IMG/VR virus record: IMGVR_UViG_3300031162_000483
Location: 1-21,518 of that record
Source: a virus
DNA: 21,518 nt
Strand: one strand, 5' to 3'
The translations under genes were made by a program, and so were the position numbers. A model generated the notes under the pieces. That model saw only the letters and a list, made by a program, of their open reading frames with translations. It was not told the origin of the DNA and ran no database searches. This document shows, piece by piece, positions 8,858-16,916 of this stretch. The stretch's first letter is position 1; every line of letters starts with the position of its first letter.

Positions 8858-9280
8858 ATGGCTTATTCAAAAGAAGTAGTAGATAGATTCGAAGCAGTTC
8901 TCAAAGATCCTGCTAAACATTCAGTTGGTAGATTTGATCCGAATGATTCTACAGTTATCTCTGGTATGGTCGGAGCACCATCTTGTGGTGATGTAATGAA
9001 GTTGGATATGAAAATGAATGGTGATGTTATAGAAGATGTGAAGTTTAAAACATATGGTTGTGGTTCAGCGATAGCCTCAAGTACTATGTTTGTAGAAATG
9101 TTAAAAGGTAAAACTATTGAAGAAGCTAAACAGATTAAAGATAAAGATATAGCTGACGCGTTACAGTTACCACCAATCAAATTACATTGTTCTGTATTAG
9201 CAGAAGAAGCTATTAAGAAAGCTATATCAGATTACAATCCTCAGATAGGACACAACAACCCACCAAAACTTGACAACTGA
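8858..9280 (+). CDS. iscU: IscU-type Fe-S cluster assembly scaffold
   Basis: A close homologue of bacterial IscU, the scaffold on which 2Fe-2S clusters are built from IscS sulphur before transfer by HscA/HscB. All the key residues are present: SGMVGAPSCGDVMKL with Cys43 and Asp45, YGCGSAIASS with Cys68, and LPPIKLHCS with Cys111; LPPIK (104-108) corresponds to the HscA-recognition LPPVK. The first 127 residues align end to end with E. coli IscU. The last 13 are an extra tail containing IGHNNPP, a short motif I recall from unrelated phage and proteobacterial proteins. It has a late promoter match upstream, and promoter P3 lies in its last codons. In a phage this is an auxiliary metabolic gene that may sustain or redirect host Fe-S assembly. 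No iscS or hscA is nearby. Confidence 0.95.
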   Translation: MAYSKEVVDRFEAVLKDPAKHSVGRFDPNDSTVISGMVGAPSCGDVMKLDMKMNGDVIEDVKFKTYGCGSAIASSTMFVEMLKGKTIEEAKQIKDKDIADALQLPPIKLHCSVLAEEAIKKAISDYNPQIGHNNPPKLDN

Positions 9281-9303: not shown

Positions 9304-9525
9304 ATGATCTTAACAAAAAAGAAGTTTACTAATTCAGTTGAAGAACTAGTTATCAAAAAAGAATTATCCTATATAGACGCGATCGTTTACTTTTGTCAAC
9401 AGAATCATTTAGAACCTGATTCAGTCAAAGGATTGATAACTCCTCCCTTAAAAGAGAAAATCAAAGCTGAAGCTGTAAGTCTTCGTTTTTTAAAAGAAGA
9501 ATCTAACGCGAAACTACCAATATAA
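9304..9525 (+). CDS. gp33: late promoter transcription accessory protein, gp33-like
   Basis: Seventy-three residues matching the short gp33 versions of marine T4-like phages: an opening LTKKKFTNSVEELV, a central SYIDAIVYFCQQNHLEPDSV, a KEKIKAEA helix and the terminal LRFL segment. In T4, gp33 bridges the host RNA polymerase to the sliding clamp gp45 and, with sigma factor gp55, turns on late genes. T4 gp33 is 112 residues, so this one is shorter. It lies immediately before bS21 and gp59, in the T4-type 33-59-32 cluster. With the ATG at the start of the P3 transcript it is likely read from a leaderless mRNA. Confidence 0.8.
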   Translation: MILTKKKFTNSVEELVIKKELSYIDAIVYFCQQNHLEPDSVKGLITPPLKEKIKAEAVSLRFLKEESNAKLPI

Positions 9526-12262: not shown

Positions 12263-13768
12263 TTATTGGGCTAACGCCATATTACTAGCGAATGAATCTT
12301 GAGGTTCTGTACCTGTTGGTACTATTGTGGTTGTTGAACTAGCTTCATTGACAGTATTGTTATTTTGTTGAACTATTTGATTAGCTCTTTCCATTGTATT
12401 GTCAGCTCTTCTATCAGCTAAAGACTTTTCTCTTTCAGCAAACTCTTGAGCTTGACTAGCTTTCTCAACTTCAAAGGCTGCTCCTTCTTCATCAACTCTT
12501 TGTCTCATAGCTCCAGCACCAATGTCTACAGGATCTAAGTCATATTTCTCACCAGGTATCAGTTTATTAATACCTTTGATAACCATGTTGATACCATTTT
12601 CAAGACCTGTCATGACAGTTGCGAAGAGTGATTTTAATCCTAACCATATAGACTTAAATGTATTACTAATAAATGTTACAGCTTTATCTTTCCATAAGAC
12701 TAATCCATCTAAAGCTATCGCGAAACCTTCTTTAATCACTTCCCATCTGGCCATGATCATATCTTTATTTTCTATGAACTTATCTCTTAAGTACATCACT
12801 CCAAATATTAGAGCTGCTACAGCTAAACCGATTAGAATTACAGGTGCTAACATTGTTATACCCGCTATAAGAATAGAAGCTGCTGATGCTAACATACCAC
12901 CAACAAGACTAGCTACTGAAATAACCATTCTCTTAGCACCTGATAATAAAGTTTTACCAGCGTTCATCATTGAAACACCTATAGATTTTATACCACCCAT
13001 GAAAGCTGTTCCAGCTTTTTTCAATGTTTTAATAGGATGCTTGATTCCATTACCAATACTTTTAAAAGTCTCTCCCATTTTAGTGGTAGATTCTCTTAAA
13101 TTATCCAGAGACTTGTCTAAGAATGATTTATTCTCAGAATATCTTTTATCTGGTGTACCATCGGTTTTGAGTTTCTTCTCTTTCTTATCTTTTTTACCAC
13201 TAAATGGATTAAACTTTTCTTTAATATTCTCCATAGTCTTTTTCTGATCAAAATTACCGTCGTCATCTTGTCCAATCAAACCACTGATTGTCTTACCTAG
13301 TATACCACTATTTTTAATATTAATCAATAAAAGCTTACCGAGAGTTGCACCTATAGCAGTAACGATTGCTAGAATAGATTTAATACCAGGTGCCTCAGCG
13401 ACCAGGCTCATGACTGCAGTAATTTGTTTAAAGTCTTCTTTAAGAGCATCACCCAATTTAGCACTTTGAGATTTTAATACTGATGCTAACTGTTCAAAGT
13501 TAGACATAGCCATAAGGTCTCTTTTTCTTTGAGCTTCAGCTTGTTCTTCTTTAGCTTTATTATCTTTTTCGTCTTGTTTACTTTTTTCTATTTGAGCTGC
13601 AGCTTCTTCTTCAGCAGCCTTGACAAAAGCTGTCTTCATATCATCGGTGCCCATAAGCATCCCTGATAATTTATCAGATAGTGATTCGTGATGTTCACTA
13701 GCTTCTTTACTCTTATAAGCTTCTTGTTGTATCTTTAAGAGTATATTGTCTGCTACAGCTTCTGCCAT
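12263..13768 (-). CDS. tail tape-measure candidate (gp29-like position)
   Basis: 501 residues. The N-terminal 120 are a charged coiled coil (about 45-85). Then come a hydrophobic patch (121-150), a Lys/Gly-rich linker, and a long hydrophobic stretch at 281-327 (MVISVASLVGGMLASAAS...), followed by amphipathic helices and a coiled, Gln/Asn/Thr-rich tail. This layout is typical of phage tape-measure proteins, which set tail length and enter the host membrane with DNA. T4 gp29 is 590 residues; I cannot match it residue by residue. Being directly downstream of the gp26-gp51 pair and the two-helix membrane protein supports the call, since tape measures follow their chaperones. AGGAAT precedes the start (minus strand). 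It ends at the structured gap. Confidence 0.65.
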   Translation of the reverse strand: MAEAVADNILLKIQQEAYKSKEASEHHESLSDKLSGMLMGTDDMKTAFVKAAEEEAAAQIEKSKQDEKDNKAKEEQAEAQRKRDLMAMSNFEQLASVLKSQSAKLGDALKEDFKQITAVMSLVAEAPGIKSILAIVTAIGATLGKLLLINIKNSGILGKTISGLIGQDDDGNFDQKKTMENIKEKFNPFSGKKDKKEKKLKTDGTPDKRYSENKSFLDKSLDNLRESTTKMGETFKSIGNGIKHPIKTLKKAGTAFMGGIKSIGVSMMNAGKTLLSGAKRMVISVASLVGGMLASAASILIAGITMLAPVILIGLAVAALIFGVMYLRDKFIENKDMIMARWEVIKEGFAIALDGLVLWKDKAVTFISNTFKSIWLGLKSLFATVMTGLENGINMVIKGINKLIPGEKYDLDPVDIGAGAMRQRVDEEGAAFEVEKASQAQEFAEREKSLADRRADNTMERANQIVQQNNNTVNEASSTTTIVPTGTEPQDSFASNMALAQ

Positions 13769-13777
13769 GTGTTATTC

Positions 13778-14161
13778 CTAGTTAGGGTTAGTGTCACCGT
13801 GTTCTTTAGCTGCACTAGATGTATACAACCCAAACCATGCTGCTCCTGCTCCGACTAATACAGATATTAAACCTGATTGTTCTAATGTTGGATCAGTTAA
13901 ATCCATAAACCAGAATGTAGCATAGTATAGCAAGTACATATAGATACCTAAGAATGCTCTTGGAATAATTCTCCAAGCATCTATTGTCTTAGCAGCGAAT
14001 ACCCATTTCTGCCACGGGTTCTTTCTATCTTCTTGTGTTAGTTCAAATATCTCTTGTTTTAGTTGACCTATTTCGTCAACCATCTGCATGAACTTTTTAA
14101 GATCAATTTCGACCTCGTTTCTGTCCATATCTCCGTGAAATTGTCCACTTGGATTATTCAT
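13778..14161 (-). CDS. two-helix membrane protein, holin candidate
   Basis: 127 residues: an acidic coiled-coil N-terminus (15-45), then membrane segments at about 65-86 (IIPRAFLGIYMYLLYYATFWFM) and 96-113 (SGLISVLVGAGAAWFGLYT), and a short polar end. Such a protein recurs in marine T4-like phages, often labelled hypothetical or holin-like. GAGGAG lies before the ATG. It is nine bases upstream of the tape-measure gene and two bases downstream of the gp51-type stop, so it is part of the tail operon. Holin function is a possibility based on topology alone. Confidence 0.7.
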   Translation of the reverse strand: MNNPSGQFHGDMDRNEVEIDLKKFMQMVDEIGQLKQEIFELTQEDRKNPWQKWVFAAKTIDAWRIIPRAFLGIYMYLLYYATFWFMDLTDPTLEQSGLISVLVGAGAAWFGLYTSSAAKEHGDTNPN

Positions 14162-14163
14162 TG

Positions 14164-14361
14164 TTATCTCCTCATTTTTTGTTCGTGAGCTTTTTGTCTT
14201 TGCTCTTCTTCTTCTAAATATTTCATTAGAAGTTGAACATATACTTCCCTCTCCCAGGGTATCATATTGTTCAGTTCTGTTAAACTGTACTTATGATGTT
14301 GCATTAAACCGAAGTTTGTATGAATTAAATTATATAGACTTTCATGAGAGAGGGCTAGCCG
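14164..14361 (-). CDS. gp51: gp51-type -1 frame extension of gp26 (tail chaperone-like)
   Basis: Read in the -1 frame from the slippery site at the end of gp26, this gives 65 residues: RLALSHESLY, NLIHTNFGLM, QHHKYSLTEL, NNMIPWEREV and then YVQLLMKYLEEEE with a basic end. The pattern (H...F.LM..H.YSL.EL..M.PWER..Y..LL..) is that of gp51/tail-chaperone T segments. The only ATG (14304) would give 46 residues, has no Shine-Dalgarno site and would drop the conserved LIHTNFGLM part. So I read it as a gp26-gp51 fusion of 299 residues (234+65). T4 gp51 is an essential hub-assembly factor. An independent start at 14304 is the alternative. Confidence 0.7.
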   Translation of the reverse strand, partial: RLALSHESLYNLIHTNFGLMQHHKYSLTELNNMIPWEREVYVQLLMKYLEEEEQRQKAHEQKMRR

Positions 14362-15062
14362 AAAAAATTTCCGATTCCCACTAATTCATATGAATTATTC
14401 TCATTACATTTTTCACAATCATAACTTCCATTAATTCTCAATGTTTTGACATTAACAAAGAACGCTTGAATCTTTTCAAACATATCTAAAGACATGCTAT
14501 CTAAGAAATTCATTAGTTCTTTCTCTGTGAAATCATCTCTAGTATGAATCTCATCTCCGTCAATAATTGAATTAATACATTTAGCTACAACTTCAAAAAT
14601 TACTCTTGGGTCCTCTGAATTGTTTAAATTTACTGAATTAACAACTTGATAACTCGGTACATTTAAATCTATACTAATAGTGTCTGTAACTTTAACTACA
14701 TGATCTATTACTTGTTCAGGTTCCTTTACAATGGTTTGTTCTAACTGTACTGTAACTTTATTAAGTTCGTTACAATTATTACATTCCATTTGTATATCAG
14801 CTGTTTCACCAACTGATTTAATTCTTAATTGTAAAAATAAATATTCTAAATCAATAGTAGCTAAATCTTTAGCATCTATATCATCACAACATATATCAAT
14901 CAATCTAATCATTTCACTAATTTGTTCATTAGTGTTTTCTGATTCTTGTGCTACTAATAACACTTTTTGTTCACCAACTAGAAACGGTCTATAAGTGACT
15001 GTTTCACCAGATGATGGTAAGACACAACTATGTTTAGGTGTGTCAAGTACTGGTAACGCCAT
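14355..15062 (-). CDS. gp26: baseplate hub/tail chaperone protein, gp26-like
   Basis: 235 residues matching the T4 gp26-type baseplate family (T4_baseplate, PF12322 as I recall): MALPVLDTPKHSCVLPSSGETVTYRPFLVGEQKVLLV, then IDLEYLFLQLRIKSVGE (70-86). Two CxxC pairs (Cys94/97, Cys216/219) probably bind a zinc ion. T4 gp26 was listed as a hub subunit, but the baseplate structure suggests an assembly role. The end of the gene carries a U-UUU-UUC slippery heptamer (14361-14367) two codons before the TAG; a -1 shift gives a longer gp26-gp51 product. GAGGAAA precedes the start. A weak late-like CTAAATA lies upstream on the minus strand (15097 to 15091). Confidence 0.85.
   Translation of the reverse strand: MALPVLDTPKHSCVLPSSGETVTYRPFLVGEQKVLLVAQESENTNEQISEMIRLIDICCDDIDAKDLATIDLEYLFLQLRIKSVGETADIQMECNNCNELNKVTVQLEQTIVKEPEQVIDHVVKVTDTISIDLNVPSYQVVNSVNLNNSEDPRVIFEVVAKCINSIIDGDEIHTRDDFTEKELMNFLDSMSLDMFEKIQAFFVNVKTLRINGSYDCEKCNENNSYELVGIGNFFG
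14361..14367 (-). promoter_or_regulatory. candidate -1 ribosomal frameshift site T TTT TTC
   Basis: In the gp26 frame the codons read AAT TTT TTC GGC TAG, so T-TTT-TTC is a classical X-XXY-YYZ heptamer. After slippage the ribosome reads CGG CTA GCC and stays open for 65 codons. GGCTAGCC just after it is a perfect palindrome; no other strong stem was seen. Confidence 0.65.
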
Positions 15063-15102: not shown

Positions 15103-15705
15103 CTATCCGAACAACTTATCATTTACTTTCTTATCAAGTTTTGATCTTATATTTCTCATCTTCTTCTTAAACAATCCACCCAGTAATCCACTAGGTGAAT
15201 TATCGAATGTTGAAGACCAAGTTCTGAATGTAAACTCAACATCAAATGTTTGTACAGTAGTAGTCTCTGCTGTAAACCCTACACCTGATACATTCGTTGG
15301 AAAAGCTTCGTGTAACTCTACAGAATAGATTGGTATATTGTCAACACCTAACTGTTCTATTTTTACTTGACCATGATAAGTCTCAGGATATTGAAGATTG
15401 TATGCTTCATCATACATAAAACTCTGCCAGAGTTCCATCATTTGTTTATCTTCGTAAGTTGTATCTAACATAAATGTACAAATAACTTTATTTTCGTATT
15501 CTATACCTGTTACATATTCTCTATTGGGTGTAGCTCCACCGTAATTTTTAGCTGTTGTTACCATAGTCTTACCAGGTGTTGATACAGCTGTACATCTAAG
15601 ACCTCTACTTCTCATCTGTAGTGACTTGGGTCCTCGAATCTCTACATTGAATCTATCACTTCTACTCATAGAATCCATATGATTCATAAATCTGTTTATG
15701 TTCAT
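15103..15705 (-). CDS. gp54: tail-tube-fold protein, gp54-like (baseplate tube initiator)
   Basis: 200 residues with a gp19/tube-type domain over about 15-165: RFNVEIRGPK near the start, then beta strands with KVICTFMLDT, a YEDKQMMELWQSFMY helix, and VEFTFRTW at the end. The basic C-terminal tail (GGLFKKKMRNIRSKLDKKV) is not found in the main tube protein gp19. Tube-fold proteins gp48 and gp54 cap the baseplate and start tube polymerisation; the nearby gp48 and gp53 genes favour gp54. It is larger than T4 gp19 (163) but smaller than T4 gp54 (320). AGGAG precedes the ATG and it abuts the next gene upstream (shared position 15705). Tube fold sure, exact name less so. Confidence 0.7.
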   Translation of the reverse strand: MNINRFMNHMDSMSRSDRFNVEIRGPKSLQMRSRGLRCTAVSTPGKTMVTTAKNYGGATPNREYVTGIEYENKVICTFMLDTTYEDKQMMELWQSFMYDEAYNLQYPETYHGQVKIEQLGVDNIPIYSVELHEAFPTNVSGVGFTAETTTVQTFDVEFTFRTWSSTFDNSPSGLLGGLFKKKMRNIRSKLDKKVNDKLFG

Positions 15706-16283
15706 TAAAATTTACTCCTACTTTCATTCCAGACTGTATTCTTATCAACTTTTCTAAATGATTCTGTTGGTAAGAAGATAGCTATTTCCCAGTCAGCTGG
15801 TTCTATTAATAATAATGGTGATTGTATTTGATTACTCAAATAATGTTTTAAACATGGTTTAAAGAATCTCATTTTTGATGTACTCTTTAAAAGTTGATAA
15901 GTTACATTCATTTTTGTTGTTCTATCGTATTTGTCATTGTTCGTAATGTCATATAACTCATCTAAAAATTGGGCCCTAATTAAAGGGTGTAAGTAATGTA
16001 AATTAAGTCCATAAAAACCACCTTTGGCTTTTTGAACAGGGATACATAATGGAAACCTATCATAGTATGGTAATGTCGCTTTTGTCTTTGGATCATATTG
16101 AAAATTATACATTGACCCATATACTTGTCGTGATCGTGTTGGACCATCTCCAATCAAAGCGGCGCGAGAGACTTTTCTGTTACTTACTGTGGAACGAAAC
16201 CATTCCATTGAAGCTTTTGTTCGAGCGGCTATACCAGCTCTGAACGCTTCTTGTTCAAGTTTGTCGAATAGTCTCCCTGCCAT
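15705..16283 (-). CDS. conserved T4-like marine phage protein (192 aa), unknown role
   Basis: The protein has a basic helical N-terminus, then YDPKTKATLPYYDRFPLCIPV and GFYGLNLHYLHPLIRAQFLDELYD, a pattern I recall as conserved in many T4-like marine phages. FKPCLKHYL and LLLIEPADWEIAIFLPTESF follow. I do not know the function with confidence. Lying downstream of the gp4 gene on the same strand, it might correspond to gp2 (DNA end protector), which neighbours gp4 in T4; this is synteny only. No Shine-Dalgarno site is obvious, only GAG-like bases. It runs into the gp54-like gene with one shared base. Confidence 0.75.
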   Translation of the reverse strand: MAGRLFDKLEQEAFRAGIAARTKASMEWFRSTVSNRKVSRAALIGDGPTRSRQVYGSMYNFQYDPKTKATLPYYDRFPLCIPVQKAKGGFYGLNLHYLHPLIRAQFLDELYDITNNDKYDRTTKMNVTYQLLKSTSKMRFFKPCLKHYLSNQIQSPLLLIEPADWEIAIFLPTESFRKVDKNTVWNESRSKF

Positions 16284-16295
16284 TATTATAAACTC

Positions 16296-16916
16296 TTAAA
16301 ATTTATGAGTGAAATGTAAAGACACAGCGTCTCCAAATTCAACTTCACTTTCTTTAACATCACTCATTACAAGTAATCCTAGAGTCATGCTGTCAGATAA
16401 AGACCAGTCAGCTTTTAACATCTTAACTTCTCTACCATCAGACCATTCTCCAAGTTCTAAGCTGACATCAGCCCATGAAATGAAAGGTAAACCAATATTA
16501 TACCATTCATAATCCATGTCTAAGTCAACACCTTCAGCTTTACCGTATGAGAAAGATTCATATCCGACTTGCCAGATTCTTTCTTCAAAATCTAATCCAT
16601 CAGAATTATCTCCACTATAACGATAAGCTATATATTCACCATTGAACCAGAAACCTGATTCGAATGATTTTGTGAATCCACCGTAAAAGTCAGATTCTAA
16701 CTCTCTATCACCGTCGATATCAACGCTTGAGTTCCAGTTACCTATATAAAAACCTTGACCAAGGTCTTGTTCTATACCAAAGTTCACTGCTAGTCCATGA
16801 TCAGATTGTGTTTGACCACGCCACATATAGTCAGTGCTGATTCCAACATGACCACTCATTGCTAATGTAGATGTACTCAATAGTACACTACTTAATAATA
16901 CTAATAATTTATTCAT
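16296..16916 (-). CDS. outer-membrane porin, TorF/TIGR02001-like
   Basis: Signal peptide MNKLLVLLSSVLLSTSTLA with cleavage probable after Ala19. The mature part is a 187-residue beta-barrel with alternating aromatic and polar strands and Asp/Ser/Gly turns, ending in an outer-membrane-type terminal HFTHKF (C-terminal Phe). GHVGISTDYMWRGQTQSDHGLAVNFGIEQDLGQGFYIGNW (22-61) is a strong hallmark of the bacterial TIGR02001/TorF putative porin family. So this is a host-derived envelope gene in a tail operon. AGGAG precedes the ATG and a late-type CATAAATA lies about 60 bases upstream, so it is made late. It may change uptake or receptor availability, or block superinfection; none is shown. Size is typical for the family (about 200-230). 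Confidence 0.88.
   Translation of the reverse strand: MNKLLVLLSSVLLSTSTLAMSGHVGISTDYMWRGQTQSDHGLAVNFGIEQDLGQGFYIGNWNSSVDIDGDRELESDFYGGFTKSFESGFWFNGEYIAYRYSGDNSDGLDFEERIWQVGYESFSYGKAEGVDLDMDYEWYNIGLPFISWADVSLELGEWSDGREVKMLKADWSLSDSMTLGLLVMSDVKESEVEFGDAVSLHFTHKF

Follow-up and report, generated by a model that had tools for sequence, protein, structure and literature searches.

Gene pair G/GT of phage lambda was reportedly characterized by Xu, Hendrix and Duda in 2004, who are said to have described a -1 slip shortly before the first frame ends, which gives a short and a long chaperone. The 2022 paper by Vladimirov and colleagues is reported to find frameshifting conserved in several T4-like groups, with the T4 genes being 26 and 51. 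That study identified the tail assembly chaperones (TAC) of T4-like phages (Vladimirov, Gautam and Davidson 2022, Virology 566:9-15), and it is the source given in a passage of PMC12846349 for the poly-T slippery sequences of TAC-N genes in T4-like phages. According to a passage of PMC10885494, some T4-like phages have a short gene plus a longer fusion in place of frameshifting. The frameshift kind of chaperone in T4-like phages is thus already known, and the first-pass annotation of the DNA analyzed here, which saw no sign that it had been described for T4-like gp26/gp51, was mistaken on this point. Passages of PMC12846349 also deal with the TAC frameshift of Vandenendeviridae and Andersonviridae, which are different phage families.

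The locus studied here lies in a contig of 21,518 bases from a marine T4-like virus, a partial piece, the whole of which is referred to as the window. With the T4-like TAC-N/TAC-NC pairs it has in common the gp26/gp51 protein family and the short/long scheme, as far as the cited passages describe them. T4 itself differs in having two separate genes, with a gene 26 that lacks the run of six U's (U6), whereas the window has the frameshift arrangement. The likeness to lambda G/GT consists in two frames that overlap and lie ahead of the tape measure gene (a putative one in the window), and in the proposed -1 slip towards the end of the leading frame with its short and long chaperone; the differences are the slip sequence (reportedly G-GGA-AAG in lambda, U-UUU-UUC in the window), a predicted zinc-ribbon-like domain in gp26, and an extra gene before the putative tape measure gene. 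We consider it very likely, judging from sequence comparisons, that a -1 frameshift at U-UUU-UUC produces, alongside TAC-N, the longer TAC-NC, which would be equivalent to lambda gpGT and T4 gp51. The grounds for this are the slip site, the open -1 frame, selection on both, and colinearity with gp51, together with a TAC-like model of the N-terminal part of gp26.

The gp26-type gene of the window (positions 14355-15062, minus strand), the proposed TAC-N or short chaperone form, encodes 235 aa with a calculated mass of 26.6 kDa, and matches PF12322 (T4_baseplate; E 1.7e-53) and phrog_150 (E 2.9e-57). Its 3' end reads GGA AAT TTT TTC GGC TAG and, as the first-pass annotation had pointed out, contains the slippery heptamer T-TTT-TTC (14361-14367, minus strand) two codons ahead of the stop. 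The -1 frame (14164-14361, minus strand) is open for 65 codons and ends with a TAA at 14166-14164; the peptides originally quoted from it, including PWEREVYVQLL, are present. This TAC-C segment, of the gp51/T type and below called the T segment, matches phrog_634 ('baseplate hub assembly catalyst') with an E of 4.7e-25 over profile positions 58-120 of 121. It also weakly matches positions 237-280 of 282 of phrog_150 (E 5.5e-4), which shows that some phrog_150 members carry both parts as a single protein. Joining gp26 residues 1-234 to the T segment gives a TAC-NC of 299 aa with a calculated mass of 34.6 kDa, and not the gp26 form of 33 kDa that had been anticipated. The predicted junction peptide of the frameshift product is CNENNSYELVGIGNFFR, while the C-terminal peptide of unshifted gp26 ends NFFG. 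Three in-frame U6 heptamers were found in the 6530 codons of the window (35 CDS listed), and only behind that of gp26 does a long conserved -1 frame open. The other two are located in genes 1755-2315 and 9304-9525 (both plus strand), 13-14 codons from the gene ends; behind them, the -1 frame reaches a stop after 0 and 4 codons, so that they look like chance occurrences.

Under the proposed mechanism, most gp26 translation would run to the stop codon and yield the short chaperone TAC-N, while a minority of ribosomes would slip back one base at U-UUU-UUC, bypass the stop of gp26 and translate a further 65 codons, the shifted product being the 299-aa TAC-NC. The C-terminal segment may coat the tape measure protein or recruit it, with the short form filling the scaffold. 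The slippage itself, its efficiency, the binding of the tape measure protein and any stimulation by an upstream Shine-Dalgarno (SD)-like element are inferred.

To follow the heptamer across relatives, 90 loci were gathered from IMG/VR, 10 via gp26 and 80 via the T segment, none of them picked for the heptamer. In all 91 loci including the window, the T segment was found by tblastn in the -1 frame of gp26. The addition of 12 phage genome records and four distant IMG/VR loci (KVP40, PhiW-14 and Rhizobium types) gave a set of 107 loci, in which L006 and L011 represent the same contig and KVP40 and PhiW-14 each occur twice; the non-redundant set comprised 78 loci (<85% identity). IMG/VR searches with gp26 of the KVP40, PhiW-14 and Y68 types returned only 2, 1 and 1 loci, respectively, so the sampling beyond the cyanophage-like group is thin.

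The U6 heptamer was present in the gp26 phase in 107/107 loci, window included, in the spellings TTTTTTC (86), TTTTTTT (11), TTTTTTA (8) and TTTTTTG (2), and the -1 frame remained open for 164-206 nt beyond the gp26 stop. In the non-redundant set all six U's were invariant (78/78), at synonymous positions too: the codon preceding the Phe pair always ended in T, though C is possible (the background of T among gp26 NNY codons is 74%), and the first Phe codon was always TTT (background 66%). No probability is attached to this invariance, because the loci share ancestry.

The -1 frame itself is conserved as a coding sequence. In nine close relatives, dN/dS was 0.073 over the 19 codons ahead of the first ATG and 0.205 for T codons 20-60, and the variable sites before the first ATG were distributed over the first, second and third T-frame codon positions as 4, 0 and 11. 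On these substitution patterns, the codons ahead of the first ATG are under purifying selection (dN/dS about 0.07). The Arg directly after the slip, ahead of the gp26 stop, was kept in 56/78 loci, and near-invariant blocks of the T segment are NF (positions 16-17), QHHKYSL and PWER. When the 16 annotated or added loci were withheld from the building of a T model, that model reported all 16 of them, with L100 and L101 scoring weakly. The T segment of Yut3 (L100) had no phrog_634 match. In Acinetobacter phage SH-Ab 15599, an unannotated T-like segment was observed in the -1 frame behind gp26 (L101, 3684-3850).

The alternative adopted in GenBank treats the T segment as a gene in its own right, translated by internal initiation or by reinitiation coupled to the gp26 stop. 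Among the 12 phage records of the frameshift type, the T segment is annotated as its own gene in nine, KVP40 being such a case, is unannotated in three, and is joined to gp26 in a single CDS in none. The gp26 stop overlaps a T-frame ATG in 10/107 loci, and a T-frame ATG lies within -3 to +15 nt of the stop in 23/107 (31/107 when ATG, GTG and TTG are counted), so coupled or separate initiation is possible in those 23 relatives. In the window, however, the first ATG of the -1 frame (14304-14306, minus strand) comes after 19 conserved codons and has no SD-like sequence ahead of it by eye; we do not take it for the true start, in agreement with the first-pass annotation, which had objected that it lacks a ribosome site and would drop part of the conserved stretch. 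The same holds more widely, since the first ATG falls within the conserved segment, at T codon 20 in 63/107 loci and at codon 19 in 11/107, and only 3/107 loci have an SD-like 4-mer ahead of their first ATG. A separate gene would also leave the invariant U6 and the post-slip Arg codon (56/78) unexplained, and we regard this explanation as very improbable. With frameshifting as the preferred reading, the annotation is to be corrected: the small gp51 gene of these records would be the tail of the frameshifted chaperone and not an independent protein.

T4-type phages provide a comparison in which both parts occur in one frame. In T4 gp51, a single frame, PF12322 is matched at residues 1-201 and phrog_634 at residues 147-246. 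A profile of the 78 spliced products matched nine T4-type gp51 proteins with a probability of 99.7 and an E of 2.9e-25, and the alignment of the spliced G+T profile with that of gp51 was colinear over columns 1-294, through the slip site. Nine of ten T4-type gp51 proteins were used for this alignment, L111 being left out since it was readable only to 120 aa. The gp51-type frame of L111 (4001-4746) is interrupted at 120 aa, yet its tblastn match spans 1-247. The T model matched T4 gp51 at its C terminus (residues 206-245) and gave no match to T4 gp26; in a comparison of 14 proteins (E-values for 14 sequences) it found 11/12 gp51 proteins and neither gp26, the one gp51 missed being a truncated read. 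The PF12322 domain, the gp51-type C terminus and colinearity with full-length gp51, as expected of the gp26/gp51 family, are present.

In phages with a separate full-length gp51, the U6 was found in 0/11 copies of gene 26 (11/12 were readable to the stop), while Phe-Phe, spelled TTC TTT, was retained in 8/11. By this sequence comparison, gene 26 of the T4 relatives is a natural negative control: it has no slip site left in phages whose second gene encodes the fusion outright. Comparing the frameshift type with the T4 branch, with its single-gene fusion and lost slip site, makes the evolution of the recoding signal directly testable.

In -1 frameshifting of the dnaX type, slippage is stimulated by an SD-like element situated some 10 nt ahead of the slip site. 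Anti-SD pairing in the 78 loci was strongest from -20 to -12 relative to the YYZ codon, with a mean of -5.96 kcal/mol versus -4.93 in synonymous recodings (z about -5); lesser dips (z about -3) were seen near -36 and -26. The SD-like site ranked in the top tenth of its own gene in 59/78 loci, and the Glu preceding Gly at this site was encoded by GAG in 30/50 cases, versus 6/35 elsewhere in the same genes. In the window, the proposed stimulator (14375-14383, minus strand), whose conserved GG is located 9 nt upstream of the heptamer, is weak: it pairs with -4.2 kcal/mol, a strength equalled or surpassed at 8% of the positions of that gene. No SD-like element was present in SH-Ab 15599 and Yut3.

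The RNA downstream of the slip site was on average more stable than synonymous controls (mean z about -1.5). A z below -1.5 was obtained for 33 to 38 of the 78 loci in segments from +8 to +68, versus 10 to 18/78 further downstream. Against dinucleotide shuffles, no excess stability was observed for +3 to +43 (mean z -0.15), while +8 to +78 showed an excess (-1.97). The helices pairing in 60% or more of the loci were short and at differing places. No stable hairpin was detected immediately downstream in the window (z +1.3 versus synonymous controls). A consensus downstream hairpin was considered and rejected, the RNAalifold energy being 0 on an in-register alignment of 71/78 loci. The SD-like element 9 nt upstream and the lineage-specific hairpins, which the window lacks, are the predicted additions made here to the known frameshift. 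A wider scenario, to which we give somewhat less than even credence, is that gp26 of the cyanophage-like group and its relatives carries a three-part dnaX-like signal (an SD-like element 9 nt upstream, mostly in a Glu-Gly codon pair; the invariant U6; and, in about half of the lineages, a downstream hairpin whose shape differs by lineage), from which the T4 branch escaped via a separate full-length gene 51, erasing the slip site and mostly keeping Phe-Phe.

Polymerases slip on long A/T runs, and the fusion might accordingly be made from an mRNA altered by transcriptional slippage on the U6/U7 run, given that U runs occur in 107/107 loci, with seven U's in 11. The run is interrupted as TTTTTTC in 86/107 heptamers, though, and the X-XXY-YYZ phase fits every locus; nor would transcriptional slippage need the upstream anti-SD pairing, which exceeds the synonymous controls, and this route to the fusion seems highly improbable. 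That a sequencing or assembly error in the poly-T run has split a single gp26-gp51 gene, a suspicion raised by the error-prone nature of homopolymers and by the uninterrupted gp51 of T4, is refuted by the occurrence of the arrangement in 107/107 loci, among them 12 phage genome records that were deposited independently, and is almost certainly wrong.

The identity of gp26 was further examined with an AlphaFold2 model (mean pLDDT 90.8). The top three VIA matches of this model were 3fgx, 3klu (YqbN) and 2ob9, the HK97 tail assembly chaperone; 3fgx and 3klu/YqbN are presumably TAC relatives as well. These rows had Z of 7.1-7.3 over model residues 1-94, and the following row had a Z of 4.0; values below 8 are moderate and may reflect merely a common arrangement. 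Residues 1-84 of the model align with HK97 gp13 (2ob9) over 82 residues (Z 7.1, rmsd 4.1). The two proteins differ in that identity is 11% and gp26 beyond about residue 85 resembles zinc ribbons. When the model was compared with the PDB by Foldseek, no match reached E <= 0.001, and 2ob9 ranked eighth (probability 0.80); solved structures searched with the gp26 sequence yielded no hit at E <= 1. The closest predicted viral structures were T4-type baseplate hub proteins. Taken together, the colinearity with gp51 and the HK97-like model of gp26 make a chaperone pair of the lambda G/GT kind the most likely identity of gp26 and its frameshifted product. The first-pass proposal of a -1 frameshift, a gp51/T-type segment and a lambda G/GT analogy has thus come through the analysis intact, and would tie the abundant marine T4-like phages to a lambda-type logic of tail-length control.

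The part of gp26 from about residue 85 on matched the zinc ribbons of NrdR and ZPR1 (Z 3.8-4.0), which is consistent with the CxxC pairs in the gp26 sequence. The gp26 protein (14355-15062, minus strand) thus has a predicted zinc-ribbon-like extra domain on a TAC-like fold.

On the minus strand of the window, the gene order is DNA end protector (15705-16283), tail tube, gp26, the -1 segment, a 127-aa gene and a tape-measure-like gene. The tail tube gene (15103-15705, minus strand; phrog_45 E 2.3e-28, and PF06841 E 4.8e-6, slightly under the cut-off) lies directly upstream of gp26, as for a TAC pair. The putative tape measure gene (12263-13768, minus strand; 501 aa) is named from its position and from weak PHROG matches (phrog_1272 E 1.6e-4, phrog_167 E 1.9e-4); weak tape-measure matches were likewise obtained for 1/5 genes scanned at the equivalent place in other phages. 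The statement that a tape measure gene follows gp26 needs correcting: the tape-measure-like gene does not directly succeed it, since the 127-aa gene (13778-14161, minus strand; phrog_10198 E 4e-19, no function given) intervenes between it and the chaperone. No T4-style separate full-length gene 51 was found among the ORFs of the window, itself a 21.5-kb piece.

Two other genes of the window deserve mention. Among the tail and head-completion genes, a Gcw_chp family protein (16296-16916, minus strand; PF09694 E 1.2e-15) has a signal-peptide-like start and no PHROG match; we take this family to be putative outer-membrane proteins. A NifU/IscU-like Fe-S scaffold gene is located at 8858-9280 on the plus strand (PF01592 E 4.6e-39; phrog_8429).
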